Program-made: the position numbers and the translations under genes | Part shown: positions 1 through 9,011 of the stretch, one piece after another | Position numbering within the stretch: position 1 is the first letter of the stretch | Layout of the letters: every line of letters begins with the position of its first letter | The notes under the pieces: model-generated | Told to the model about the DNA's origin: nothing | What the model saw: only the letters and a program-made list of their open reading frames with translations | The model's database searches: none | NCBI GenBank assembly: GCA_016841005.1 | Contig: JAEORG010000172.1 | Coordinates: 1 to 9,011 of the forward strand | Reading direction: 5' to 3' | DNA: 9,011 nt | Source: Candidatus Thorarchaeota archaeon | GTDB taxonomy: Archaea; Asgardarchaeota; Thorarchaeia; Thorarchaeales; Thorarchaeaceae

Positions 1-1
1 A

Positions 2-202
2 CTCAAGGAGAGACTCCACAAGGAGATCACCGAACTAGTCCCAGAGAACATCGAGGTCCGAATCATCGCTCCACCCGAGAGACAATATTCAGTCTGGATC
101 GGCGGAAGCATTCTTGCTTCACTGAAGACGTTCCAGAAGATGTGGGTATCTCGCAAGGAGTTCGAAGAGCAAGGCCCCGAAGTCATACACCGTTGTATCT
201 AA
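2..202 (+). CDS. Asgard actin, C-terminal 66 codons (5' part off window)
   Basis: This is the C-terminal end of an actin-family ATPase, the filament-forming cytoskeletal protein typical of Asgard archaea and eukaryotes. Seen: an open frame from the left edge to TAA at 200-202. It contains [20 protein letters not shown], which matches the actin subdomain 1/3 segment [19 protein letters not shown], then [19 protein letters not shown] and the ending PEVIHRCI (eukaryotic form: PSIVHRKCF). The near-eukaryotic C-terminus excludes MreB and ParM and argues against crenactin. The start, the ATP-binding phosphate loops and the hydrophobic loop lie outside the window. The fragment is visibly richer in G and C than the peptidase gene that follows. 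The last 17 sense codons and stop recur at 2432-2485. A strong hairpin terminator follows directly. Confidence 0.95.
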
Positions 203-261
203 GCGTACGACACCTAGTTTCCGAAGGAGGGGTTCGCTCCTCCTTCGTATCTCTCCCTTTT
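147..261 (+). repeat. Direct repeat copy A: actin 3' end plus terminator
   Basis: Positions 147-207 match 2430-2490 at 57 of 61 bases. After a 6-base segment present only here (208-213), 214-229 matches 2491-2506 at 16 of 16. The hairpin and pyrimidine tail that follow are similar but not identical. A weaker third copy begins at 7298 (27 of 34 bases against 196-229). Copies A and B bracket the prolyl oligopeptidase gene. Confidence 0.9.
222..261 (+). terminator. Actin terminator: hairpin plus pyrimidine tract
   Basis: The arm CGAAGGAGG (222-230) pairs perfectly with CCTCCTTCG (239-247). Two inner pairs, one of them G-U, extend the stem to 11 bp closed by a TTCG loop at 233-236. A pyrimidine run with TTTT follows to 261. 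Related tails recur at 2519, 2797, 4576 and 7345 on the same strand, so this looks like a local standard terminator module. Confidence 0.75.
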
Positions 262-266
262 ATAAA
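258..266 (+). promoter_or_regulatory. Probable TATA box for the prolyl oligopeptidase gene
   Basis: TTTATAAAA directly abuts the pyrimidine tail of the actin terminator. Archaeal initiation about 25 bases downstream would begin transcription near 290 and leave a leader of roughly 50 bases before the ATG at 339. This is inferred from sequence alone. Confidence 0.5.
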
Positions 267-338
267 ATCGAATTTCCCCAAGATTGATTAGTATGCATCT
301 GTACTTCTTCTGATTATCACGTGCGATGGGGAAAGAGA

Positions 339-2426
339 ATGACCATCAAATATCCTGACACCAGACGAGAAGATGTAGTAGATGACTATCACGGAGTAAA
401 AGTTCAAGACCCTTTTCGTTGGTTGGAAGACACATCGAACCCAGATGTGCAAGAATGGATTGACCAGCAAAATAAGCTAACAGAAGATGTGCTTAATTCA
501 TATCCTGGAAGAGATACTGTAAGGAAAAGAACTAGGGAACTGCTTTCATACGAATCAATATCCGAACTAGTCATCCGCAAAACCCCCAGTGGGGTCCGTT
601 TCTTCTATTTTTACAAACATCCAGAAAACAGTCAGCCTGTAGTGTGCTATCAAGATGAGGAACAAGGTGAACGATACGAAATCATCAATCCTGAACAACT
701 AAAACCAGATGGATTGCTATCAATTGATTGGTTTTATCCATCATGGGATGGAAGATATGTCGCGTATGGAATATCAGAATCTGGAACCGAAGAGAGTGTT
801 CTCCATGTTTTTGATTTAGAAGCAAATGAACTCCTTCAGGAAGAAATTCCTAGAACCCGTTGGGCATACGTTGCCTGGAATCAGACAAACACGGGCTTCT
901 ACTATACTCGATATCCTCTACCTGGAATGGTGCCTGAAGAAGAGATGAATTATCATAGACATGTGTATCTTCATGAGTTCGGAACCGACTACCTGGATGA
1001 CCCAAGTATCTTTGGTGATGAACGAACTCCGACGGAAATGCCACTAGTCTTTACACACCCTGAGCATGATTGGATACTTCTGATTGCATGGCGGTACTCT
1101 TCGGCTGATGTTTATGTGACAAAGGATAGCTATGATTACAACCTAATCCCTTTGATAGAAAGTGACACGGATAGGAGCATGGCCTATTTTTCATCAACTA
1201 GCGTCTTTGTCGAAACACATCAAAATGCCAAGAATGGCCGAATCCTGAAGTTTGAGTTGAAGGATTTGGAAGATTCCACATCATCTCCGGATGGAGCAGT
1301 ATTTGTTGAGGAAGGAGAGTTCCCAATTGAGATTTGGATGGGAACAGTAGCTGGTTATCTCACTTATATACGCTTGAAGAATGCAAGTCATGAGATTATG
1401 ATTCATGATTTGAACACTGGATCCTTCATAGAGCGTATCGAATTTCCATCCCCTGTAACTGTTATACAAACCACTCAATGCCCCCGAACAAAGAAACTCT
1501 ATCTATCGATACAGAAATTTACTGGACCTGATAATATTCAAACCTATGAAATTGGAGGAGACCTAGTTCCATTCTTCGAACCATCAGTCGAATTAGATTC
1601 GAATGACTTCAAAGTGGATCAAGTTTGGTACAAATCTAAGGATAGTACAGATGTATCTATGTTCTTGGTGTCTTCAAAAAGGACTAAGATAAGCAATCAA
1701 ACTCCAATACTAATACGAGGTTATGGCTGTGGTGGAGTTCCATACACTCCTCAATTTCATCCAGAATACATGATTTGGCTGGAAAAAGGGGGCATTCTAG
1801 CGATACCGAATATTCGGGGAGGTGGCGAGTATGGAGATGGGTGGCATAAAGATGGCATTAGAGAATGCAAACAAAACGGGTTTGATGATTTCATTGCTGC
1901 AGCAGAATGGTTGCACACAAATGGTTATGGCTCATCTGAAACAACAGCTATCATGGGTCGCAGTGGTGGTGGATTTCTCGTTGGTGCTATTATGGTACAG
2001 CGTCCTGATTTATTTGCATCCGTATATTGCGGAGTCCCACTCTTGGATATGGTGAGATATGTTGAATCTACTATAGGTAAGTATTGGACTGGTGAATTTG
2101 GAGACCCCTCTGTTGAAGAAGAATTTCAATGGATTTACCCAATAAGTCCGTATCACAATGTTCGAGAAAATATCTCCTTTCCAGCAGTACTCTTCTATAC
2201 AGCATTAGGTGATATTCGAGCAGATCCATCTCATGCATTGAAGACAGCTGCTAGAGTACAACAAGCCACATCCGCTGAGATAGATGTACATCCTATTCTA
2301 CTCCGTGTAGACAAAGATGTAGGACACAGTGCCTATGGTTTAGGACTGTCAACGGAGAAGTTAGTGGAAATACGAAGCAATCAAGTTATATTCCATGCAA
2401 AACACACAGGTCTTAACTTGGAATAG
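339..2426 (+). CDS. Prolyl oligopeptidase, S9A family
   Basis: A serine peptidase that cleaves short peptides after proline; there is no signal peptide, so it should be cytosolic. Length is 695 residues (family about 700). The N-terminal motif TRREDVVDDYHGVKVQDPFR and WLED is typical; a variable beta-propeller region (about 70-415) and a conserved alpha/beta-hydrolase domain (about 420-695) follow. Catalytic Ser542 lies in GRSGGG, Asp625 in GDIRADPSHALK and His663 in DVGHSAYG. The oxyanion tyrosine segment GYGCGG and the NIRGGGEYG, FDDF and QRPDLF motifs are intact. Arg627 matches the substrate-binding Arg643 of pig POP, but the residue before it is Ile instead of Asp, and the nucleophile elbow is GRSGGG rather than the usual GGSNGG. 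An in-frame GTG at 321 exists, but the family N-terminus fits the ATG at 339. The gene stands alone between two copies of the actin 3' end, and its stop is only 3 bp from the second. Confidence 0.93.
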   Translation: MTIKYPDTRREDVVDDYHGVKVQDPFRWLEDTSNPDVQEWIDQQNKLTEDVLNSYPGRDTVRKRTRELLSYESISELVIRKTPSGVRFFYFYKHPENSQPVVCYQDEEQGERYEIINPEQLKPDGLLSIDWFYPSWDGRYVAYGISESGTEESVLHVFDLEANELLQEEIPRTRWAYVAWNQTNTGFYYTRYPLPGMVPEEEMNYHRHVYLHEFGTDYLDDPSIFGDERTPTEMPLVFTHPEHDWILLIAWRYSSADVYVTKDSYDYNLIPLIESDTDRSMAYFSSTSVFVETHQNAKNGRILKFELKDLEDSTSSPDGAVFVEEGEFPIEIWMGTVAGYLTYIRLKNASHEIMIHDLNTGSFIERIEFPSPVTVIQTTQCPRTKKLYLSIQKFTGPDNIQTYEIGGDLVPFFEPSVELDSNDFKVDQVWYKSKDSTDVSMFLVSSKRTKISNQTPILIRGYGCGGVPYTPQFHPEYMIWLEKGGILAIPNIRGGGEYGDGWHKDGIRECKQNGFDDFIAAAEWLHTNGYGSSETTAIMGRSGGGFLVGAIMVQRPDLFASVYCGVPLLDMVRYVESTIGKYWTGEFGDPSVEEEFQWIYPISPYHNVRENISFPAVLFYTALGDIRADPSHALKTAARVQQATSAEIDVHPILLRVDKDVGHSAYGLGLSTEKLVEIRSNQVIFHAKHTGLNLE

Positions 2427-2428
2427 AC

Positions 2429-2485
2429 ATATCCCGAAAGGAGTTCGAAGAGCAAGGCCCCGAGGTCATACACCGCTGTATCTAA
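2429..2485 (+). pseudogene. Remnant of an actin gene 3' end (last 18 sense codons)
   Basis: One frame reads Ile then [17 protein letters not shown] and TAA, identical in protein to the end of the actin at 147-202 except for Val to Ile at the first codon. The four base differences downstream of that codon (151/2434, 154/2437, 181/2464, 193/2476) are all synonymous third-position changes. No actin homology is visible before 2429, where the peptidase stop (2424-2426) lies. The fragment therefore comes from a functional actin gene diverged under protein-level selection, not from recent noise or a perfect duplication. It has no start and is presumably untranslated. Confidence 0.85.
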
Positions 2486-2541
2486 GCGTACTAGTTTCCG
2501 AAGGAGTGGGAGCGTTCCCCTCCTTCGTTTCTTTCCTTTTT
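2430..2541 (+). repeat. Direct repeat copy B: actin 3' end plus terminator
   Basis: Second copy of the block at 147-261, offset by 2283 bases. It has 73 of 77 identical bases outside a single 6-base gap, followed by a diverged hairpin that keeps its pairing and a similar pyrimidine tail. Its left border falls 3 bases after the prolyl oligopeptidase stop. Confidence 0.88.
2499..2541 (+). terminator. Terminator after prolyl oligopeptidase (within repeat copy B)
   Basis: CGAAGGAG (2499-2506) pairs with CTCCTTCG (2520-2527). An inner GGGA/TCCC stem with one bulged T and a 4-base loop continues it, and a pyrimidine tract ends in five T. The loop and inner stem differ from the copy at 222, but both fold into a hairpin, which suggests the structure matters. 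Confidence 0.7.
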
Positions 2542-2548
2542 CTGGTCG

Positions 2549-2794
2549 TTAATCATCCCAATACTCTTCATCTGGGACATCCGTCCCTTCTTCAATAGGT
2601 CCACTCCTCCATTCTAGAAATCTGACTAAAAGAGGTTTGAAAACATAGAGTGCAAATAGTGGAATAATGATTAACGATATCAGGTTAATCAGATTTTGCC
2701 ACTACGTATACTCCTCCTCAAATGGAAAAATCATTAGAAATCCTACCACAACTAGATATTGTCCTTGACTGAAAATAATACTTCTGCCAGAAAA
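2549..2794 (-). pseudogene. Broken small membrane protein with in-frame TAG
   Basis: On the minus strand one frame reads from about 2794 to TAA at 2549 and is interrupted only by TAG at 2702-2704. Before the stop it encodes FSGRSIIFSQGQYLVVVGFL and MIFPFEEEYT. After it comes WQNLINLISLIIIPLFALYV, then a basic/acidic tail ending in GTDVPDEEYWDD. Hydrophobic stretches on both sides of the TAG, in the same frame and joined by a plausible loop, argue that this was one protein with two membrane helices. No start codon lies upstream: an in-frame TAA occurs about 15 codons before, and the frame runs backwards through a terminator-like repeat (2797-2820). The 5' end therefore seems lost. It lies 18 bases or so after the winged-helix membrane protein in the same direction and may be the remains of a partner or of a similar protein. 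UAG readthrough cannot be excluded. Confidence 0.6.
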
Positions 2795-2796
2795 CC

Positions 2797-2820
2797 TCTC
2801 CTTCGTTTCTCTCCCTTTCG
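2797..2820 (+). repeat. Isolated terminator-like pyrimidine block (copy D)
   Basis: TCTCCTTCGTTTCTCTCCC followed by TTTCG closely matches the 3' arm and tail of the terminators at 239-261 and 2519-2541, but no 5' hairpin arm precedes it and no plus-strand gene ends nearby. The bases CGTTAATC after it also occur after copy B (2547-2554). It looks like a stranded repeat remnant at the broken 5' end of the minus-strand pseudogene. Confidence 0.5.
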
Positions 2821-2833
2821 TTAATCTGGTTGG

Positions 2834-3313
2834 TTATCTTTTGGATGTGGACTGAAGATTAGAATAAAGGATTAGATTGCTTGTCGAAAACAACGTGGCA
2901 AAGACTCCCAATGTTAACATTTCAAGAGGTCCTTCTACAACTATCATGTACATCAATGCTGATGCCCACAATAATGCATTAGCGATAATGGTTGCTCCAA
3001 GTTGTTTGGAAACGCCTCCTAAAATCTCTGCTGTTTCAGAGTAAGTGACAAGTTTTGTCATCAATGCGTATACATCCTTTCCTAGAGTTGATAGCTTGTA
3101 GAGATCATCATCGTGAAGCATTAAGGGTGTCAGTGTACTGAGATGATATGAAAGGGATGCGCTCTCTTCAATTCCAGTAGCTCTCTTTATTTCAGTAAAT
3201 TTTGCATTCTTCTGTTCTCCTATGAATCGAAGTATATCTCGTCTTATTTGATGACCAAGTGTTTTGAATACCATTTCTTCAATTGAGATTGAATCATCTA
3301 CATCCTCTGACAT
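2834..3313 (-). CDS. Winged-helix (ArsR-like) regulator with two membrane helices
   Basis: A 159-residue protein likely to be a membrane-tethered DNA-binding regulator. Residues 12-86 form an ArsR/MarR-type winged helix: FKTLGHQIRRDILRFIGEQ, then KFTEIKRATGI with recognition helix ASLSYHLSTL and wing DDLYKLSTLGKD. Two hydrophobic segments follow (about 106-126 and 130-151) and then a short basic tail. The frame is open up to 3472, but ATG 3313 is preferred: homology starts there, and a minus-strand TATA box at 3346-3352 places initiation near 3323, about 10 bases before it. It is divergent from the double-GNAT gene, which makes that gene and itself candidate targets. No sensor domain is visible, and the ligand is unknown. 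Confidence 0.82.
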   Translation of the reverse strand: MSEDVDDSISIEEMVFKTLGHQIRRDILRFIGEQKNAKFTEIKRATGIEESASLSYHLSTLTPLMLHDDDLYKLSTLGKDVYALMTKLVTYSETAEILGGVSKQLGATIIANALLWASALMYMIVVEGPLEMLTLGVFATLFSTSNLILYSNLQSTSKR

Positions 3314-3344
3314 TATTTTCACATGAATAACAGAGCTTTGCGAG

Positions 3345-3353
3345 AATATAACT
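3345..3353 (-). promoter_or_regulatory. TATA box for the winged-helix membrane regulator
   Basis: The minus strand reads GTTATATTC here, 33 bases upstream of the ATG at 3313. The spacing predicts a nearly leaderless transcript and supports the shorter start. Confidence 0.5.
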
Positions 3354-3460
3354 TGCTTAGTGTACAGAATTTTACTAGAAGTGTGATTAGTTATTTTCAT
3401 TAACTCAGTCCCGTTTCTCTCCCCTTTCTGCGAATCTACCTTTTGGCGTTGTTGTAAATC

Positions 3461-3468
3461 ATTATAAT
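3461..3468 (+). promoter_or_regulatory. TATA box for the double-GNAT gene
   Basis: ATTATAAT lies about 45 bases before the ATG at 3512. Initiation near 3490 would leave a leader of about 20 bases that contains the GGGAGGT ribosome binding site at 3499-3505. Confidence 0.5.
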
Positions 3469-3511
3469 ACATCCTCAGTGATTCTTGAGAACCACGATGG
3501 GAGGTTTCCAG

Positions 3512-4468
3512 ATGATCCTAAAGATTCAGAAGATGCAAGAGATTGATGTTGATGCTCATGCCAATCTAATCTACAAATCCCGACAAAACTCACCTCTCCA
3601 AAGTGATGAAAGAACTGTAGAGAGAATTAAGCAGGTATTGGAGGACTTGCAAAAGCAGGATGATGCTCACGCTATGATCATAGCTTTGGATGAAAGATCT
3701 GGCGAACTTCTAGGTCAGATGTTAATGTGGCTAGAATGGGGTGAAATAGGAGTGACTCGACCATGGCAACCCATTGTACAACCTAATGTAGATCAAGAAA
3801 CTGTAGCTATTGCATTGATCGAACACGCAAAGAAACTCGTGGAAACTCACTCAAAGACAAAGCTTGAGATATGGATGGAAATCACTGACGAGCAGGTGAA
3901 GGCAGTACAACCCACCTATGAAAACTGGTATCAACAATGTGGTTTCAAATTAAACTCAAAAGAATACTTCATGGACACAGAGTACTCGAAATTGAAAGAA
4001 TTGGAGTATTCTATTCCCGAAGAGATTAAAGTCATTTCTATGTCAAACTTCACAAACAAACAGTTAGAGGATATCGTATTCGAAACATTCCGAAATGGTT
4101 CAGATTTATGGGTCAATAGCATGACTGATTCTCAACTCAATGGGTCTGTAGAAGCTTGGTTAAAGAGAGATGAAACGTTCAACCCGGAAGCTTCGATTGT
4201 ATTATCAAAGGATGGTTCAATCATAGGATATAATGTAATGAGGATCGAGGAGGACTCTATTGAAGTTGGGCCAGTTGGAGTCCTTCCTGCATATCGTGGC
4301 AAAGGCCTTGGAAGATCCCTTATCCTTGAATCGATTCATAGATTCCCTGAAAAACAACAATCCGTATGGCTTACAGTGAGTACTGGAAATACCTATGCAC
4401 ACAGACTCTATTCGCAACTTGGGTTCGAGAACCGATACACAATTCTGATTTATGCTTGGACCCCCTGA
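3512..4468 (+). CDS. Tandem GNAT-domain N-acetyltransferase
   Basis: A 318-residue protein predicted to transfer an acetyl group from acetyl-CoA to an unknown amine. The C-terminal GNAT domain (about 165-318) carries EVGPVGVLPAYRGKGLGRSL, with the acetyl-CoA loop R262-G-K-G-L-G, and ends with the usual AHRLYSQLGF and YAWTP. The N-terminal half (1-155) has the length and pattern of a second GNAT fold (QQCGFKLNSKEYFM resembles the domain end) but lacks the RGxGxG/A loop, so it is probably structural or substrate-binding. The frame extends to TTG 3485 and ATG 3497, but GGGAGGT at 3499-3505 sits 6 bases before ATG 3512, which decides the start. The truncated gene at the right edge is a paralogue. 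A hairpin terminator follows at 4563. Confidence 0.88.
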   Translation: MILKIQKMQEIDVDAHANLIYKSRQNSPLQSDERTVERIKQVLEDLQKQDDAHAMIIALDERSGELLGQMLMWLEWGEIGVTRPWQPIVQPNVDQETVAIALIEHAKKLVETHSKTKLEIWMEITDEQVKAVQPTYENWYQQCGFKLNSKEYFMDTEYSKLKELEYSIPEEIKVISMSNFTNKQLEDIVFETFRNGSDLWVNSMTDSQLNGSVEAWLKRDETFNPEASIVLSKDGSIIGYNVMRIEEDSIEVGPVGVLPAYRGKGLGRSLILESIHRFPEKQQSVWLTVSTGNTYAHRLYSQLGFENRYTILIYAWTP

Positions 4469-4562
4469 GTCGTTTGGGTGTGATTCAAGGAAATCTCGGC
4501 GTATTTTACTCAGGTATCATATACTACTGTTTCTGAACACACTGCAGCTCATCGCTTGGGGA

Positions 4563-4599
4563 GTGAGAAATCTCGCCTCCTTCGTTTCTCACCATTTTA
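4563..4599 (+). terminator. Terminator between convergent GNAT and TetR genes
   Basis: GTGAGAAA (4563-4570) pairs with TTTCTCAC (4585-4592), followed by CATTTTA. The 3' portion contains CCTCCTTCGTTTCTC, the same block as in the actin and peptidase terminators, but here the stem is formed by different bases. It serves the plus-strand gene; no clear terminator is seen for the tetR side. Confidence 0.6.
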
Positions 4600-4623
4600 G
4601 TAAATTGATTAGCCTTCTCCTTC

Positions 4624-5196
4624 TCATCTGCAGATTGAATTCCATGCCATCTCACACACTTGTTTGATCATATTCTCACTTAATTTTAAGACGCCGCTGA
4701 TATGAAACCTAAGTAGTGTAATGATAGGCACAAATGCGAACGAAGCAAGCAAAGGAATAGGGAGGTCCTTGATGATTCTCTCCTTGATGCCTCTCTGGAG
4801 AAGATCATTACTGAAACGATAAATCCCAAACTCCTGTTCGTTTATATTCTGCATCATCGCTGTTTGTTCGAAGCGTTCACGATAGAGAATGAAGTCTGGA
4901 TGCTCCAGATAGTATAGGAACGTACCCCTACACAAGCTCTTGAAAGATTCTTCTACTGTCATATTGTCTTGGATCTCTTCCAGGGCTCCTTTGCTCATGT
5001 GATTTCTGACATCGACATAGATCTTTGTAAAGAGATCTTCCTTATTCTTGAAGTAGATATAGATAGTTGCTGGAGAAACTTTTGCCTGTGATGCTATCCG
5101 AGAAATTGAGATACCATCAAAACCAAGCTCGTTTACTAGTCTAATCGACGTATCAACAACTGCATCATATTTTGCTTGGTCACGTGTTCGAGTCAT
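4624..5196 (-). CDS. TetR-family transcriptional regulator
   Basis: A 190-residue one-component repressor. The N-terminal HTH (residues 10-55) reads GISISRIASQAKVSPATIYI then YFKNKEDLF, the standard TetR signature. The rest is the helical ligand-binding and dimerisation domain, with no recognisable subfamily. A GTG start at 5217 is in frame, but a minus-strand TATA box at 5218-5226 places initiation at about 5197, making ATG 5196 essentially leaderless and preferred. It is divergent from the MBL/membrane-protein operon. Three copies of TGAA-N4-CATTCA in the shared region, one between its own TATA and start, indicate autorepression and control of the neighbours, relieved by an unknown effector. 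TetR regulators are known in archaea, though less common than in bacteria. Confidence 0.92.
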   Translation of the reverse strand: MTRTRDQAKYDAVVDTSIRLVNELGFDGISISRIASQAKVSPATIYIYFKNKEDLFTKIYVDVRNHMSKGALEEIQDNMTVEESFKSLCRGTFLYYLEHPDFILYRERFEQTAMMQNINEQEFGIYRFSNDLLQRGIKERIIKDLPIPLLASFAFVPIITLLRFHISGVLKLSENMIKQVCEMAWNSICR

Positions 5197-5202
5197 GAAT
5201 AA

Positions 5203-5216
5203 TGAACAATCATTCA
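5203..5216 (+). promoter_or_regulatory. Probable TetR operator O1
   Basis: TGAACAATCATTCA, matching the consensus TGAA-N4-CATTCA. It lies directly between the tetR TATA box and the leaderless tetR ATG, so bound repressor would cover the start site. A wider pair TGAAT (5196-5200)/ATTCA (5212-5216) adds symmetry. Confidence 0.6.
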
Positions 5217-5217
5217 C

Positions 5218-5226
5218 TTATATAAA
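5218..5226 (-). promoter_or_regulatory. TATA box for tetR
   Basis: TTATATAAA reads as TTTATATAA on the minus strand, a strong archaeal TATA element about 25 bases upstream of ATG 5196, which implies a leaderless message. Confidence 0.65.
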
Positions 5227-5258
5227 TTCGTCCTTACGTGCTACGAAAATATTATTAG

Positions 5259-5272
5259 TGAACGTTCATTCA
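5259..5272 (+). promoter_or_regulatory. Probable TetR operator O2
   Basis: TGAACGTTCATTCA, with the perfect 10-base palindrome TGAACGTTCA at 5259-5268. Second of three same-orientation copies of TGAA-N4-CATTCA, in the middle of the divergent promoter region. Confidence 0.6.
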
Positions 5273-5283
5273 TTAATCATAAC

Positions 5284-5297
5284 TGAATAACCATTCA
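5284..5297 (+). promoter_or_regulatory. Probable TetR operator O3
   Basis: TGAATAACCATTCA, the third TGAA-N4-CATTCA copy, with the inverted pair TGAAT/ATTCA separated by 4 bases. It abuts the TATA-like GTTATAAA at 5303-5310 of the MBL operon, where a repressor would block TFB/TBP. Confidence 0.6.
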
Positions 5298-5302
5298 CTA
5301 AT

Positions 5303-5310
5303 GTTATAAA
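5303..5310 (+). promoter_or_regulatory. Possible TATA box for the MBL operon
   Basis: GTTATAAA immediately downstream of operator O3. Initiation about 25 bases on would fall near 5330, inside the longest version of the MBL frame; this would favour ATG 5348. An alternative weaker TATA-like AAAATATTA at 5246-5254 would suit the starts at 5318/5321. Confidence 0.4.
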
Positions 5311-5320
5311 GGTGAAAATG

Positions 5321-6037
5321 ATGAAACTGAACATCGAGATACCGAGCATGGCGAATAAATTTGATAGACCATACTATATCACAAGAATCGAACAGAACCA
5401 GACTAATTGTTATTTGATAGAAATAGATAATGGATTCATTTTGATAGATACAGGTTACACCAAATACCGACAAGAGATAGATGATGCAATAGCATCAGCA
5501 GGATGTGCACTTGGAAATCTCAAACTCATCGTGCTGACTCATGGGGATTTTGACCATTCTGGTAATGCTGAGTATTTTCGCAGGAAATACCGGTGCAAGA
5601 TTGCAATGCATTCTGCAGATATAGGAATGGTTGAGAAGGGTGATTTCTTCTACAATCGCGAAAATCGAGTAATTACCAAAGTACTTGGAAGATTGGCAAT
5701 CTCAATCCTACGCATGAATCTAAAGAAAGAAGACTGCTTTACTCCAGACATTCTTCTTGACGACATGCAAGATCTTTCAGAGTTTGGACTAGATGCCGTG
5801 ATAATTCACACCCCTGGACACTCAAAGGGATCTATTGGCATTCTTACAAAAGAAGAGGATTTCTTCTGTGGAGACCTCTTCGTGAACACCGCGAAACCAG
5901 AGAAGAACACCATGCTCTCTAACTCTAGAGAATACGAGGAAAGCATCAAGAAGATAGGGAGTCTCCAAATCAAGAGAGTCTATCCAGGACATGGACTTCA
6001 TTTCACTATGAATGACATACTCTCGGAGGTTCGATAG
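5321..6037 (+). CDS. Metallo-beta-lactamase-fold hydrolase
   Basis: A 238-residue glyoxalase-II-like hydrolase, cytosolic and without signal peptide; the substrate is unknown (thioester, lactone and phosphodiester hydrolases share this fold). The N-terminal strand pair NCYLIE...ILIDTGY is typical. Metal ligands, numbered from 5321: LTHGDFDH supplies His74, Asp76, Asp78 and His79, with Asp in place of the second His of the usual HxHxDH; TPGHSKGS gives His167, FCGDLF Asp185, and YPGHG His224. The site therefore looks able to bind two metals. Possible starts are GTG 5312, ATG 5318, 5321 and 5348; GGTG at 5311-5314 is best spaced for 5321, while the TATA at 5303 would favour 5348. Its TAG abuts the next gene's ATG, so the two form an operon, divergent from and probably repressed by TetR. 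Confidence 0.9.
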   Translation: MKLNIEIPSMANKFDRPYYITRIEQNQTNCYLIEIDNGFILIDTGYTKYRQEIDDAIASAGCALGNLKLIVLTHGDFDHSGNAEYFRRKYRCKIAMHSADIGMVEKGDFFYNRENRVITKVLGRLAISILRMNLKKEDCFTPDILLDDMQDLSEFGLDAVIIHTPGHSKGSIGILTKEEDFFCGDLFVNTAKPEKNTMLSNSREYEESIKKIGSLQIKRVYPGHGLHFTMNDILSEVR

Positions 6038-6601
6038 ATGACACTTGTTCTTCAGAGGGAATCTACCCCAGTCCTGAATGATGAACGGAATAAGCTAAGA
6101 AGACCAATGTATCTGAGTCTACTTCTGGTTTTTCTTTCTATGCCTCTAGTTCTATCTGCATTACAGGCATCTGGATACAATGGTACCATAGATGACACTC
6201 AACTTGGTTTTAGTGCTCAGATAATCAAGGGATACTTTGCATTGATGGACTCTCAAGGCATGATGCTCTTTGCCCTTGGGAATCTATTTGACTATCTATT
6301 CATACTATCCTATGGAACCTTCTTCTATTACAGTACAAGATACCTATCTTGGAACTATCCCCCTAGGAGTATAACAAAACAGATCGCGGTTGGCTTCATG
6401 TGGATTGGAGTTGCAAGTGCAGTTAGTGATGCCATTGAGAATATCTTTCTATTCCTAATGCTCTCCAACCCATTGGGATTTCCAAGTTGGCTTGCAATAG
6501 CCCACTCACTGTTTGCTACACTAAAGTTCATGATGATGTATGCTACTATTGGATGGCTAGTATTTTCAGTGATCTTGAACAAAACCATCTTCCGGAATTA
6601 A
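6038..6601 (+). CDS. Four-helix integral membrane protein, unknown function
   Basis: 187 residues with predicted membrane helices at about 24-44, 75-98, 114-141 and 150-180 and a short charged cytoplasmic N-terminus. Polar residues inside or near the helices stand out: Asn82 and Asp85-Tyr86 in LGNLFDYLFILSYG, Asp131 and Glu134-Asn135 in SDAIENIFLF, and Lys163 in ATLKFMMMY. This FDY...D..EN...K pattern resembles uncharacterised small four-helix proteins found in bacteria, but I cannot name a family. The start is certain: GGAGGT at 6025-6030 lies 7 bases before ATG 6038, which directly follows the MBL stop. Co-transcription and TetR control suggest that it works with the hydrolase, perhaps on a membrane or hydrophobic substrate; this is inference. 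Confidence 0.85.
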   Translation: MTLVLQRESTPVLNDERNKLRRPMYLSLLLVFLSMPLVLSALQASGYNGTIDDTQLGFSAQIIKGYFALMDSQGMMLFALGNLFDYLFILSYGTFFYYSTRYLSWNYPPRSITKQIAVGFMWIGVASAVSDAIENIFLFLMLSNPLGFPSWLAIAHSLFATLKFMMMYATIGWLVFSVILNKTIFRN

Positions 6602-6602
6602 A

Positions 6603-6629
6603 TTCTGTGAAAAATGTAGATTCACAGAA
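6603..6629 (+). terminator. Hairpin after the MBL/membrane-protein operon
   Basis: TTCTGTGAA (6603-6611) and TTCACAGAA (6621-6629) form a perfect 9-bp stem with a 9-base loop, starting 2 bases after the stop codon at 6599-6601. No T-tract follows, so it may be an mRNA 3'-end stabiliser or processing site rather than a classical terminator. It is unlike the pyrimidine-block terminators elsewhere in the window. Confidence 0.45.
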
Positions 6630-6757
6630 CTGATGAGAAGAGTGCAACAGCGAATCTGATATGACTTGTTTCCTATCCATCTGAGCTTGCTGGATAACAC
6701 GCATTTATGAATCAATAAAACAACATGCTCTGTGAATGAATAATTAGAGTGGGCATA

Positions 6758-7282
6758 ATGGGTCATATAATCGGTGCTGAAAAAGAAGATGTCGAGAATT
6801 TAGACAACGCAATGAAAAGGATTTTACAAAGCACAATAGAAATGCTCTCCAAATTGAAATCACCGACGGTAATGAATTCAGATGACTGGATTCGTCTAAT
6901 GGCAATCTTTCCTGTCTTCGCAATGACCTCAGGATCAACAGTTTTGAAAGAAGACTTGACTGAGCAAAGTTCACTTGTTGAAACATGGAAACTGGCGCAA
7001 GAGAGAATGAAACAGCTTCCGGTGCCAGATAGTTTCAAGACTGTTTCAGCTACTTTGATTGAAAAACGGGGAGTCTGTGAATTCTATGAAGTCGGTGATA
7101 GTTTCGATATTACAAGTCCATTCTATTGGCCAACATCATGTTCTGGATTATGGTTCGCAGCATGGCCGTACATGATTGCATCAGGATTAGGATTTGAAGG
7201 ATGGGAAGGTGATGATCCACACATATACAGAATCTCGTGTCCATCCAAGAAGGGTATCGTTATAGAAATGAAACGAAAATAA
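6758..7282 (+). CDS. TIGR04076-like small protein with helical N-terminal extension
   Basis: 174 residues. The C-terminal part (about 93-174) has the layout of the TIGR04076 family, whose function is unknown: a strand, then KRGVCEFYEVGDSFDI, then SCSGLWFAAWPYMIASGLG, then the closing YRISCPSKKGIVIEMKRK. Cys107, Cys128 and Cys161 are possible metal or redox positions, but metal binding is not shown. Residues 1-90 are mostly helical and unusually long for the family, whose members are often near 90-100 residues. GTG 6749 is an in-frame alternative start; ATG 6758 was chosen for lack of a convincing ribosome binding site for either. The 156-base region before it holds the hairpin at 6603 and an AT-rich stretch at 6701-6725 that could contain the promoter. 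It is convergent with the gene at 7369. Confidence 0.7.
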   Translation: MGHIIGAEKEDVENLDNAMKRILQSTIEMLSKLKSPTVMNSDDWIRLMAIFPVFAMTSGSTVLKEDLTEQSSLVETWKLAQERMKQLPVPDSFKTVSATLIEKRGVCEFYEVGDSFDITSPFYWPTSCSGLWFAAWPYMIASGLGFEGWEGDDPHIYRISCPSKKGIVIEMKRK

Positions 7283-7297
7283 CCATCTTTTCAGTGG

Positions 7298-7370
7298 TAT
7301 CTAAGTGCATGACACCAAGGTTCCATAGGAGTGGAAACACTATTCCCTCTTGTTTCTCCCTTTATGTTTT
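7298..7370 (+). repeat. Degenerate third copy (C) of the actin 3'/terminator block
   Basis: Starting 15 bases after the stop of the TIGR04076-like gene, 7298-7331 matches 196-229 at 27 of 34 bases, including TATCTAAG around the actin stop codon, GACACC (absent from copy B), TTCC and GGAG. A pyrimidine tail (CCCTCTTGTTTCTCCCTTT) occupies the same place as in copies A and B. The actin reading frame before it is not preserved. Confidence 0.65.
7328..7370 (+). terminator. Terminator between convergent genes (inside copy C)
   Basis: An irregular hairpin (GGAGTG, GAAA loop, CAC...TCC with a bulge) is followed by a pyrimidine-rich tail ending in TTTT at 7367-7370, overlapping the 3' end of the minus-strand gene. 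It is weaker than the actin terminator but positioned correctly for the gene ending at 7282. Confidence 0.5.
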
Positions 7371-7677
7371 ATTCAGGACTTGTAGCAGAAGGTCGCATTA
7401 TGCGGATTCGCGTATTTTCAAAGTAGTTGGTTGCACCACTTGCTATCTTCTGATACTGATCATCTCCCCATAGTTTTGCGAACTTGTGCTCATCTTCAAA
7501 AAATACGAGAAAGACAACATGACCAGTGTTATCAGACCAGAAGCTGTAATGCTTGATCGTCCCATCTTTTTTCATCTTCTCAATATATGGTAAGGACTTC
7601 TCCGAAAATTTCCAGTAGCCTTTCCATCGTTCTTCATCTTTTGGTGAATCCCACTCGACCATCAAACAAGTTTCCAT
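7369..7677 (-). CDS. Small ferredoxin-like-fold (dimeric alpha/beta barrel type) protein
   Basis: 102 residues of unknown function. The pattern fits a one-domain ferredoxin-like or dimeric alpha/beta-barrel protein: strand METCLMVEWD, helix SPKDEERWKGYWKFSEKSLP and YIEKMKKDG, strand IKHYSFWSDNTGHVVFLVFF, helix EDEHKFAKLWGDDQYQKIAS, strand RIRIMRP. Such proteins include mono-oxygenase-like and YciI/NIPSNAP-like folds; no catalytic residue can be assigned. An in-frame GTG at 7710 exists, but GGAGGTG (minus strand, 7683-7689) ends 5 bases before ATG 7677 and decides the start. A TATA element at 7722-7730 gives a leader of about 23 bases. It is convergent with the TIGR04076-like gene and divergent from the gene at 7874. 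Confidence 0.72.
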   Translation of the reverse strand: METCLMVEWDSPKDEERWKGYWKFSEKSLPYIEKMKKDGTIKHYSFWSDNTGHVVFLVFFEDEHKFAKLWGDDQYQKIASGATNYFENTRIRIMRPSATSPE

Positions 7678-7721
7678 ACGAACACCTCCATTGTATCGAA
7701 ACAATAACACTCTGCTTAACT

Positions 7722-7730
7722 TGTATAATT
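7722..7730 (-). promoter_or_regulatory. TATA box for the ferredoxin-like-fold gene
   Basis: The minus strand reads AATTATACA within a very AT-rich stretch, about 45-50 bases before ATG 7677 and at a suitable distance upstream of the ribosome binding site. Confidence 0.45.
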
Positions 7731-7873
7731 ATTTTATCATATCATTAAAACTACAATTATGTAATTATTCCGTCTTCTTTCGTTACTCTTTATGTCAGAA
7801 TTGCAATACCTTATTTTGTATCCCTCCCAGCTTAGAATGAAATATTCTTCCAAAATTCATTGAGGACGAGCAT

Positions 7874-8341
7874 GTGACATATACAAAGAAAGAATTGAAG
7901 AATTACCTAAAGAAACTTCTAAAGAACCAAACAGAGTTGGACAGTTTTTCATTCGAATATCAGTCTGGACATACTGCATTTCATACGCGTCTTAGAATCC
8001 TCATTACATCCGCGAAGATTGAACACCAGAGAATACCACGAGGAATCGAAGTTGGTAGTCCCGAAGAGGCGAATGCGACCAAAGTACACGAAACGGAATT
8101 TTCTATTGAGAGTCTATCCCTCTTTATAGAACAGTTACTCAAGAAGAAAATATGGGATCTAGAGAATTGTACTGACCGCGCTCTTCCAGATACAGCTCAA
8201 TTAACGTTCACAATTAGAGAAAATGAAAATATTGTCTTCACACAAAATGTCTGGCAGAACTGTCGGAATGATGACGATAGGACCAAGGATCTTATACGAG
8301 CGATAGCATCAATCATTCCTATGAACTGGAGTCCTCCCTAA
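7874..8341 (+). CDS. Conserved-looking hypothetical protein
   Basis: 155 residues, soluble, no family recognised. There is a lysine-rich helical N-terminus (1-20), a probable beta region (ELDSFSFEYQSGHTAFHTRL to SAKIEH), a helix (SIESLSLFIEQLLKKKIWDL), strands (QLTFTIRENENIVFTQNVW) and a distinctive C-terminus NCRNDDDRTKDLIRAIASII plus PMNWSPP. The density of charged and aromatic residues in NCTDRALPDTA and VWQNCRNDDDRTKDL looks like a conserved, possibly ligand-binding surface. Cys99 and Cys130 are the only cysteines. The start is GTG: GAGGA at 7862-7866 lies 7 bases upstream, and the ATG at 7872 is in another frame. A TATA-like TGAAATAT at 7838-7845 is possible. It converges with the GNAT gene with only 19 bases between stops and no pyrimidine-block terminator there. 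Confidence 0.75.
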   Translation: MTYTKKELKNYLKKLLKNQTELDSFSFEYQSGHTAFHTRLRILITSAKIEHQRIPRGIEVGSPEEANATKVHETEFSIESLSLFIEQLLKKKIWDLENCTDRALPDTAQLTFTIRENENIVFTQNVWQNCRNDDDRTKDLIRAIASIIPMNWSPP

Positions 8342-8360
8342 TCCATTGTGATGGTTCTGG

Positions 8361-9011
8361 CTAAGGTGACCAATAGTAAAACTGCTTGTAGTATTCAGGC
8401 CTGAATCCGAACTTTGTATACAGATTCTGTGATAGACTATTACTGAGAGAAGTATCAAGAGAAACAATCTCCACTCCCTCCTCTTTCAGCGTCCTCAAAA
8501 TAGTGCCTAGAAGAATAGTTCCTAATCCCTGCCCTCTGGCTTTTCGAATTAGACCAACAGGTCCAATCTCTATTTCATCGTCATCTGGCTTTGCAATAAT
8601 AAAACCAATAATCTTCTCTTCATTCATTAATACAAGTGATGCACTGTCATGAAATGGTTTTGATTTATCGAACCAATATTCTAGATTCACTCTCTTTTCT
8701 TCATGACTCATGGAGCGAAACAGGTCTTCCATGCTATCATTAAATATTTCATATCCTGATTGAATTAATAGGTCTGTAGGCACATCTGAGAATTTTTTCA
8801 GTATATAGTCACCTGGTAGCACAAGACTTGAAAATTCGATAGATGTAAGGTCAGCGGTCATGTGCATTTCCTCTGCGGCGAAATCAAAGTCTGCTTTCTT
8901 GTACCAATCAATCAAACTCTCTGACAATGATCTATGGGCATCTGTAGGTAATTCTAATTCAATCTCAATTCTGGTATGTTGTCTTTCTAGTATCTCCTGC
9001 TTTCCTGCTTC
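8361..9011 (-). CDS. GNAT acetyltransferase, paralogue of the double-GNAT protein (5' end off window)
   Basis: A predicted acetyl-CoA-dependent N-acetyltransferase; 216 residues are visible. The frame is open to the right edge: 28 codons before the TTG at 8926 (EAGKQEILERQH... ELELPTDAHRSL) align with the inter-domain region of the protein at 3512-4468, so the TTG is not the start and this is the second half of a double-GNAT protein. The C-terminal domain carries IEIGPVGLIRKARGQGLGTI with the acetyl-CoA loop RGQGLG (8520-8537), then NSLSQNLYTKFGF and the ending YYWSP, parallel to YAWTP in the paralogue. A second full GNAT half, probably without the RGxG loop, is expected to the right. The substrate is unknown. 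Confidence 0.85.
   Translation of the reverse strand, partial: EAGKQEILERQHTRIEIELELPTDAHRSLSESLIDWYKKADFDFAAEEMHMTADLTSIEFSSLVLPGDYILKKFSDVPTDLLIQSGYEIFNDSMEDLFRSMSHEEKRVNLEYWFDKSKPFHDSASLVLMNEEKIIGFIIAKPDDDEIEIGPVGLIRKARGQGLGTILLGTILRTLKEEGVEIVSLDTSLSNSLSQNLYTKFGFRPEYYKQFYYWSP

Follow-up and report, generated by a model that had tools for sequence, protein, structure and literature searches.

The 3' end of the actin gene as a probable attachment site for arrays of gene cassettes in Thorarchaeota

RESULTS

Organization of the actin 3' end in a thorarchaeotal contig

Contig JAEORG010000172.1 of a Candidatus Thorarchaeota archaeon (assembly GCA_016841005.1), analyzed here from position 1 to 9,011 (hereafter the window, meaning this whole stretch of 9,011 nucleotides), starts within an actin gene. 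The last part of this gene, together with its terminator, is present a second time behind a gene for a prolyl oligopeptidase, and this duplicated actin end is the subject of the present study. The features concerned are as follows.

2..202, plus strand: 3' end of the actin gene, with the stop codon at 200-202; the contig starts within the gene
147..261, plus strand: proximal (left) repeat copy, comprising the last 53 nt of actin, the stop codon, a spacer, a hairpin (222-247) and a pyrimidine tract
321..2426, plus strand: open reading frame (ORF) of an S9A prolyl oligopeptidase (PF02897 and PF00326), the cargo of cassette 1
2430..2541, plus strand: distal (right) repeat copy, with a spacer, a hairpin (2499-2527) and a pyrimidine tract

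The ORF at 2-202 matched the actin family PF00022 (E 7e-26), and its C-terminus shared 94-100% protein identity with 35 of the 73 actin loci described below (L001-L034 and L036). In a preliminary description made from the sequence alone, the two copies had been reported as a direct repeat of the actin end and terminator, with 73 of 77 bases alike outside one 6-base gap. The repeat was borne out by a gapped alignment of 147-261 with 2430-2541 (84% over 118 columns; blastn E 3.8e-31 within the window), and the count fits two well-preserved blocks, namely, 147-208 versus 2430-2491 (94% of 62 nt) and 214-232 versus 2491-2509 (95% of 19 nt). The same description had placed a complete S9A peptidase gene between the copies, with the right copy beginning 3 bases past the peptidase stop. 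This spacing was confirmed, and both the N-terminal propeller and the catalytic domain of the peptidase were found. Judged by eye, ATG 339 is the likelier start codon. The closest solved structure was 2bkl (E 4e-104, residues 10-671 aligned), and the alignment spans the regions of what we take to be the triad Ser, Asp, and His. L036 has a truncated relative of the peptidase in the corresponding position (60% over 78 residues). Among the fetched loci, the best blastn match of the distal copy was the actin end of L035 (86% over 118 nt). The distal copy appears to be the displaced actin end.

Distribution of the repeat in Thorarchaeota

The 66 C-terminal actin residues were compared with the genome contigs of 84,980 species, which yielded 73 loci (L numbers; genomes carry G numbers). 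Their titles name Asgard lineages except in five cases (four "archaeon" and one "Bathyarchaeota"). Thirty-nine actin loci, from 37 genomes by record name, were taken as thorarchaeotal (L001-L038 and L068); two of these, L002 and L038, are titled Lokiarchaeota, yet their actin ends resemble thorarchaeotal ones. A repeat profile was built from 27 actin ends (the window and 26 loci), with downstream copies excluded, and was used to search both strands of 42 sequences (567 kb) at E values up to 1. The 82 matches were divided equally between actin genes (41, most of them in the profile) and other positions (41). Thirty-nine of the latter were on actin-bearing contigs, all downstream of actin and in direct orientation; the remaining two were on L073, which is without a full actin end. 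No match was found upstream of actin or on the opposite strand in these 567 kb, and this restriction of the matches to actin and its downstream side places the repeat beyond chance.

Extra copies (E up to 0.01) were present in 22 of the 33 thorarchaeotal loci that extend 0.9 kb or more beyond actin. When whole genomes were searched, 43 of the 47 genomes of the class gave a match and 25 gave two or more, the strong matches being at actin, downstream of actin, or on contigs where actin itself was not matched. G003 and G004, each a single contig, had three matches and one match, respectively, all at the actin locus. Weak matches on other contigs, as in G034 (E 0.004 and 0.006) and likewise in some other genomes, were not counted as copies. 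Further copies with other cargo, for which the preliminary description had proposed a search, exist, and the strong ones occur solely behind actin or on actin-less contigs. Three contigs (L010, L024, and L037) break off 8, 10, and 21 nt past the final sense codon of actin, and L030 ends within a copy; assemblies may therefore break at the repeat, so that arrays are probably undercounted.

As a control for actin specificity, ORFs of at least 100 amino acids (aa) from 400 kb of G003 (369 ORFs) and 400 kb of G002 (354 ORFs) were screened for a downstream match that begins at least 25 nt inside the ORF and extends beyond its stop codon. Actin was positive in both genomes. One other ORF, in G003, gave a 72% match within a cluster of similar genes. 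Among the 723 ORFs, only actin clearly has its 3' end repeated downstream.

Cassette-empty sites and a one-sided hotspot

Positions are counted from the final base of actin's last sense codon. Between L004 and L005, the segments -149..55 are 95.6% identical, and 1490..9499 of L004 aligns with -32..7952 of L005 at 89% over 8,020 columns. Besides small gaps, the two loci differ by a single 1522-bp insert at the actin tail. L009, over the 483 nt that it has, agrees with L005 and is likewise empty relative to L004. Other inserts at the L005 site were found in L068 (1397 = -32) and L007 (2079 = -29), and further ones in L021 relative to L027 (950 = -48) and in L017 relative to L016 (2431 = -32). 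Since L005, L016, and L027 hold further copies farther out, each is empty for that cassette only. The preliminary description had suggested that an empty site in relatives would support insertion. Such sites were obtained for other cassettes (L005/L009 versus L004, L027 versus L021, and L016 versus L017); none of the loci compared was an exact empty counterpart for the cassette of the window. It had also named an identical arrangement in all relatives as the outcome that would speak against insertion, and the arrangements in fact differ among relatives. The empty sites and direct repeats support the proposed likeness to insertion at a gene's 3' end with restoration of the target.

The neighborhoods of 40 thorarchaeotal loci (the 39 and the window) were compared over 5 kb on each side. 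The upstream side held 11 families, 4 of which were present in 22-23 of the 23 loci that were long enough on this side. The downstream side held 101 families, the commonest of which occurred in 6 of 26 loci. The gene order upstream of actin is fixed, and the downstream side is hypervariable. In four Jord/Freyarchaeia loci without tail copies, both sides were conserved; Lokiarchaeal and other sets could not serve as controls, as few families are common on either side of them. Several families occur at shifting distances behind actin, as with the zinc-ribbon family F11 (98 to 7953 nt, e.g., 98, 111, 495, 677, 1525, 1627, and 2201 nt in seven loci), family F23 (532 to 2826 nt), and family F18 (189 nt in L006, 551 nt in L001, 1842 nt in L011, 2565 nt in L035, and, as the largest value, 7675 nt in the window).

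Cargo of the arrays

The cargo was surveyed as ORFs of at least 90 aa, of which there were 90 in 32 array spans. Their orientation was mixed, with 44 of the 90 on the actin strand. These ORFs matched 74 Pfam families, of which 25 were inspected by name; a recombination enzyme may lie among the other 49. The enzymes include acetyltransferases, peptidases S9A and S15, a deaminase, radical SAM proteins, a nitroreductase, and a methyltransferase; a solute-binding protein, NYN and SnoaL proteins, a Ras-type GTPase, and an actin paralogue were found as well. Pairs resembling toxin-antitoxin systems (DUF433/DUF5615 and HepT/nucleotidyltransferase) are also carried, and one cargo member each resembles (by resemblance only) PADLOC mads_2, mads_3, and mads_8. 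Many cargo proteins have no recognized family. L004 and L007 have one cassette stretch in common (89%).

The window holds further features behind the distal copy.

2798..2818, plus strand: fragment of hairpin arm and pyrimidine tract (20 of 21 nt), either an old copy or merely a similar terminator
2834..7282, both strands: second cargo stretch, with several ORFs between the distal copy and the third copy
2834-3472, minus strand: DUF7347/ArsR-like gene, second cargo stretch
3485-4468, plus strand: GNAT (acetyltransferase) gene, second cargo stretch
4576..4608, plus strand: fragment of hairpin arm and pyrimidine tract (82% of 33 nt), either an old copy or merely a similar terminator
4624-5217, minus strand: TetR gene, second cargo stretch
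5312-6037, plus strand: metallo-beta-lactamase-fold gene, second cargo stretch
6038-6601, plus strand: 187-aa protein without a Pfam match, second cargo stretch
6749-7282, plus strand: 177-aa protein without a Pfam match, second cargo stretch
7294..7363, plus strand: third, degenerate copy of the actin stop codon and terminator (73% over 70 nt, same register, E 1e-5)
7874..8341, plus strand: 155-aa gene of family F18, with relatives behind actin in L006, L001, L011, and L035

The third copy (7294-7363), which like the two fragments was absent from the preliminary description, closes the second cargo stretch; it was not recovered by the repeat profile search. At 4624-6037, the TetR gene diverges from the metallo-beta-lactamase-fold gene, with an imperfect inverted repeat (5249-5307) in between, and the two are perhaps a divergent self-regulated pair. 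A search of the window against Rfam gave no match.

Edges of the repeat and origin of the actin tails

The actin part of the repeat was measured, ungapped, in 30 copies. It was 32-58 nt long in the 19 copies with 85% identity or more (5 copies at 32-34 nt, 9 at 41-49 nt, and 5 at 53-58 nt), and it ranged from 11 to 51 nt in the 11 less-preserved copies; L004, L007, and L068 have one cassette end in common and are not independent in these counts. At its 3' side, the repeat ends approximately with the pyrimidine tract. The hairpin is predicted across the 27 thorarchaeotal actin ends, with two-sided compensatory change in 5 of its 7 pairs. Successive copies are spaced 344 to 4863 nt apart, with a median of 1274 nt (40 spacings, weak copies included), and their identities range overall from 73 to 98%.

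If a cassette brings its own tail, the proximal tail should be foreign and the distal tail native. This prediction was examined in the 3' untranslated regions (UTRs) of 18 loci, with a mixed outcome: three loci were clearly for it, two weakly for it, and four opposite, and the others pointed neither way. In L017, the proximal copy was nearest to L025 (0.85) and the distal copy to L016 (0.88), the nearest relative by actin body. In L021, the corresponding matches were L032 (0.91) and L027 (0.86); L027 was taken as the closer relative by downstream colinearity, its actin being too short for comparison of the body. In L031, they were L023 (0.80) and L027 (0.83), and the body was nearest to L027. 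Weak agreement was obtained for L038 and for the window (0.80 versus 0.83 to L035). At one codon pair, L004 has the sequence of related actins in its distal tail but not in its proximal tail. The array of L015 carries, as cargo at 6831-7949, an actin paralogue whose body is 40% identical to actin; over the final 58 nt, however, 53 positions are the same as in the main actin, and identity through the terminator is 91%.

Hermodarchaeota and other lineages

A version of the repeat was found in three of the eight genomes of Hermodarchaeota. L072 has its own tail type (KKEYMEQGAGVIHRCF*) at actin and again 1469, 3378, and 4408 nt downstream, with a weak copy at 5064 nt. The genomes with copies are G006 (L159), G052 (L156, two copies), and G050 (L157, three copies), and no actin gene was seen beside the copies on the contigs of G052 and G050. 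The other five genomes gave no match to two genome-wide queries, the Hermodarchaeota profile not having been applied to them. The hermodarchaeotal arrays consist of the lineage's own tail DNA; the habit is therefore either old or arose twice.

When 32 other loci (L039-L067 and L069-L071, with 0.3 to 10 kb downstream) were searched with their own tails, no repeat spanning the actin tail was found except in L070; short matches outside the tail occurred in L055, L058, L066, L069, and L071. The lokiarchaeotal locus L070 contains a 461-bp direct duplication (789-1248 and 6210-6669, 91%) that includes actin-like sequence. It is a different and possibly broken locus and was set aside.

DISCUSSION

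Proposed mechanism and alternative explanations

Insertions appear to be recurrent at the actin end in Thorarchaeota and in some Hermodarchaeota, where actin stays intact and changing genes pile up behind it. We consider it probable that cassettes attach at the actin 3' end, forming an integrated array, and that this end is restored with each insertion. A cassette, probably circular, would bring an actin end of its own, comprising the final 32-58 nt of the coding sequence, the stop codon, and the hairpin terminator. One crossover within this stretch would join the cassette to the chromosome, so that the cassette's tail would complete the actin frame and the old tail and terminator would be displaced beyond the cargo. 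Repeated rounds at the actin-proximal tail would build up an array, with older and mostly decayed copies farther out. In the window, the prolyl oligopeptidase would be the cargo of the newest cassette, and the stretch up to 7294 would represent one or more older cassettes. The recombinase would act in trans from a virus or plasmid, or would belong to an unrecognized family. That the cassette is the donor of the proximal tail we infer only, because the test of tail origin was mixed and ordinary exchange reshuffles the ends.

Several observations weigh against this explanation. In 10 of the 33 loci a second copy was absent whatever the threshold, and L033 had a weak one only (E 0.03). No pair of repeats is identical along its full length, and the copies of L022 do not decay with distance. 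Four loci (L006, L011, L022, and L023) have the opposite pattern of tail origin, with the proximal UTR the more similar to that of the closest relative. The actin tails are mosaic, L007 being foreign from about -85, which is past the homology of its cassette; this mosaicism kept a three-way comparison of the tails from locating a crossover point. A circular form of a cassette was not seen. Finally, the absence of a visible integrase, already remarked on in the preliminary description, extends for four recombinase families to the thorarchaeotal arrays: among the 47 genomes, PF00589 was present in 18, PF00239 in 13, PF01548 in 5, and PF16795 in none, and no member of these four families lay within any array, many array contigs being short. 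The array-bearing genomes G008, G009, G015, and G018, which are fragmented assemblies, contained none of the four.

Other candidates for the missing components were considered. The tyrosine recombinase of G017 was rejected as a part of the array, being some 12 kb farther out than the outermost tail copy; the 20 kb analyzed showed no copy on its far side. Hidden tRNA targets were rejected as well, no tRNA gene being found in 13 loci. In viral contigs, a pattern for the actin C-terminus matched 48 stretches, none of which was a relative, and a 30-nt degenerate tail pattern gave no match.

The main rival to an enzyme that acts in trans or is unrecognized, which we favor, is homologous recombination by the host alone. 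Circles arising from two tails of one array, or linear DNA, would reintegrate at actin through 80-120 bp of homology. The repeats are long and 73-98% identical, their left edges vary, the actin tails are mosaic, the four recombinase families are absent from the arrays, and the test of tail origin was mixed, all of which this explanation would accommodate. From the varying edges and mosaic tails it follows that homologous exchange is also active. On its own, however, it leaves unexplained how new genes first acquired an actin tail and why actin alone is used, and it could leave long stretches of actin too, whereas the well-preserved copies are confined to 32-58 nt. As the sole cause, we regard it as unlikely, though still a serious contender.

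Derivation of the copies from decayed tandem paralogues of actin is very improbable and was rejected. The paralogue of L015, which ends in the same tail, would suit it, but tblastn with actin residues 1-356 (the last 22 omitted) detected an extra actin body in only 1 of 22 array loci, again L015. The junctions are sharp even at 98-100% tail identity (L014, L017, L023, and L068), and for such sharp, young copies descent from paralogues is contradicted. An assembly artefact or a misjoining of strains, which the contigs ending 8-21 nt past the last sense codon of actin (L010, L024, and L037) might suggest if the region troubles assemblers, is the least credible general cause, because arrays span many separately titled assemblies, including the single-contig chromosome L006 (CP070658) and the 471-kb contig L003, and a cassette stretch was found again in both L004 and L007.

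A bolder form of the favored explanation is offered tentatively, as a possibility that we would not yet bet on. Thorarchaeota and Hermodarchaeota may capture cassettes by their own system, equivalent in function to the integron. Its attachment site would be the final coding segment of actin with the terminator hairpin, and its recombinase would come from a family outside the four examined or be lent by visiting elements. Actin would serve as a site that cannot be lost, and the putative mini-intron at about -60, described below, would perhaps be linked to it.

Putative mini-introns in actin genes

Three actins, two thorarchaeotal (L035, 1753-1983; L038, 10001-10231) and one hermodarchaeotal (L072, 200-514), contain a 30-nt insertion after FQ, at about -60. 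The insertion is a multiple of three in length and contains an in-frame stop codon. In L035 and L038, it is predicted to fold as a bulged hairpin like the bulge-helix-bulge of archaeal introns. In 67 of 72 loci, actin has the length expected without the insertion. On these sequence features, the insertion is likely an actin mini-intron, of which no report was found among titles and abstract openings of openly licensed PMC papers. A Jordarchaeum actin (L071, 10001-10232) has a 31-nt hairpin insertion elsewhere, after VWI, which is perhaps a second mini-intron site. The actin stretch retained in the copies (at most 58 nt) falls within the last exon of the actins with an apparent mini-intron at about -60, and intron and attachment site may be linked. 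A link of this kind has been suggested for archaeal tRNA genes.

Significance and comparison with known systems

Asgard archaea are related to the ancestors of eukaryotes, and actin is their emblematic eukaryote-like gene. In two classes, its downstream side appears to be an entry port for foreign genes, and gene gain by Asgard lineages can be sought at this defined site. The proposed mechanism predicts that a recombinase and circular cassettes can be found in metagenomes. In addition, a natural site of 120 bp might help the insertion of DNA in organisms without genetic tools. Actin as an insertion site was named in no title or abstract opening of openly licensed PMC papers.

Integrative elements use the 3' ends of tRNA and tmRNA genes and of a few protein genes; phage 21 and e14 reportedly integrate at the 3' end of icd in Escherichia coli. 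As in these elements, the 3' end of a conserved gene is targeted and restored here, the displaced end forms a direct repeat, and islands can stack in tandem. Unlike in those elements, the target is actin, the units measure 0.3-4.9 kb, the terminator lies within the repeat, and no integrase of the four families was found on the units. Tycheposons and other hitcher elements are small cargo islands at fixed sites, possibly with enzymes acting in trans. They resemble the arrays in these respects but target tRNA genes and reside in bacterial hosts.

In integrons, including those of Asgard and other archaea, arrays distant from an integrase (CALINs) are common and cassette genes generally share one orientation, according to PMC9668308. 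The arrays at actin are similarly composed of small cassettes of mixed function split by a repeated site, and arrays without a nearby integrase occur in integrons as well (PMC9668308). They differ in that the site is a coding end of actin, that cargo genes point either way (44 of the 90 surveyed ORFs run with actin), and that no IntI-type integrase is adjacent, tyrosine recombinases being absent from the thorarchaeotal arrays. Integrons are further characterized by attC sites with a typical single-strand fold; at actin, the repeat has a conserved predicted hairpin, and the window gave no Rfam match. The Heimdallarchaeal elements, in the portion of PMC8813620 consulted, are an integrase-bearing virus or aloposons with giant genes. 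They too are Asgard mobile DNA beside host genes, but their insertion sites are tRNA genes (same portion of PMC8813620). As the arrays depart from integrons in integrase and orientation and carry no integrase of their own among the four families, we regard them as a variant of known integration, and possibly as something more.

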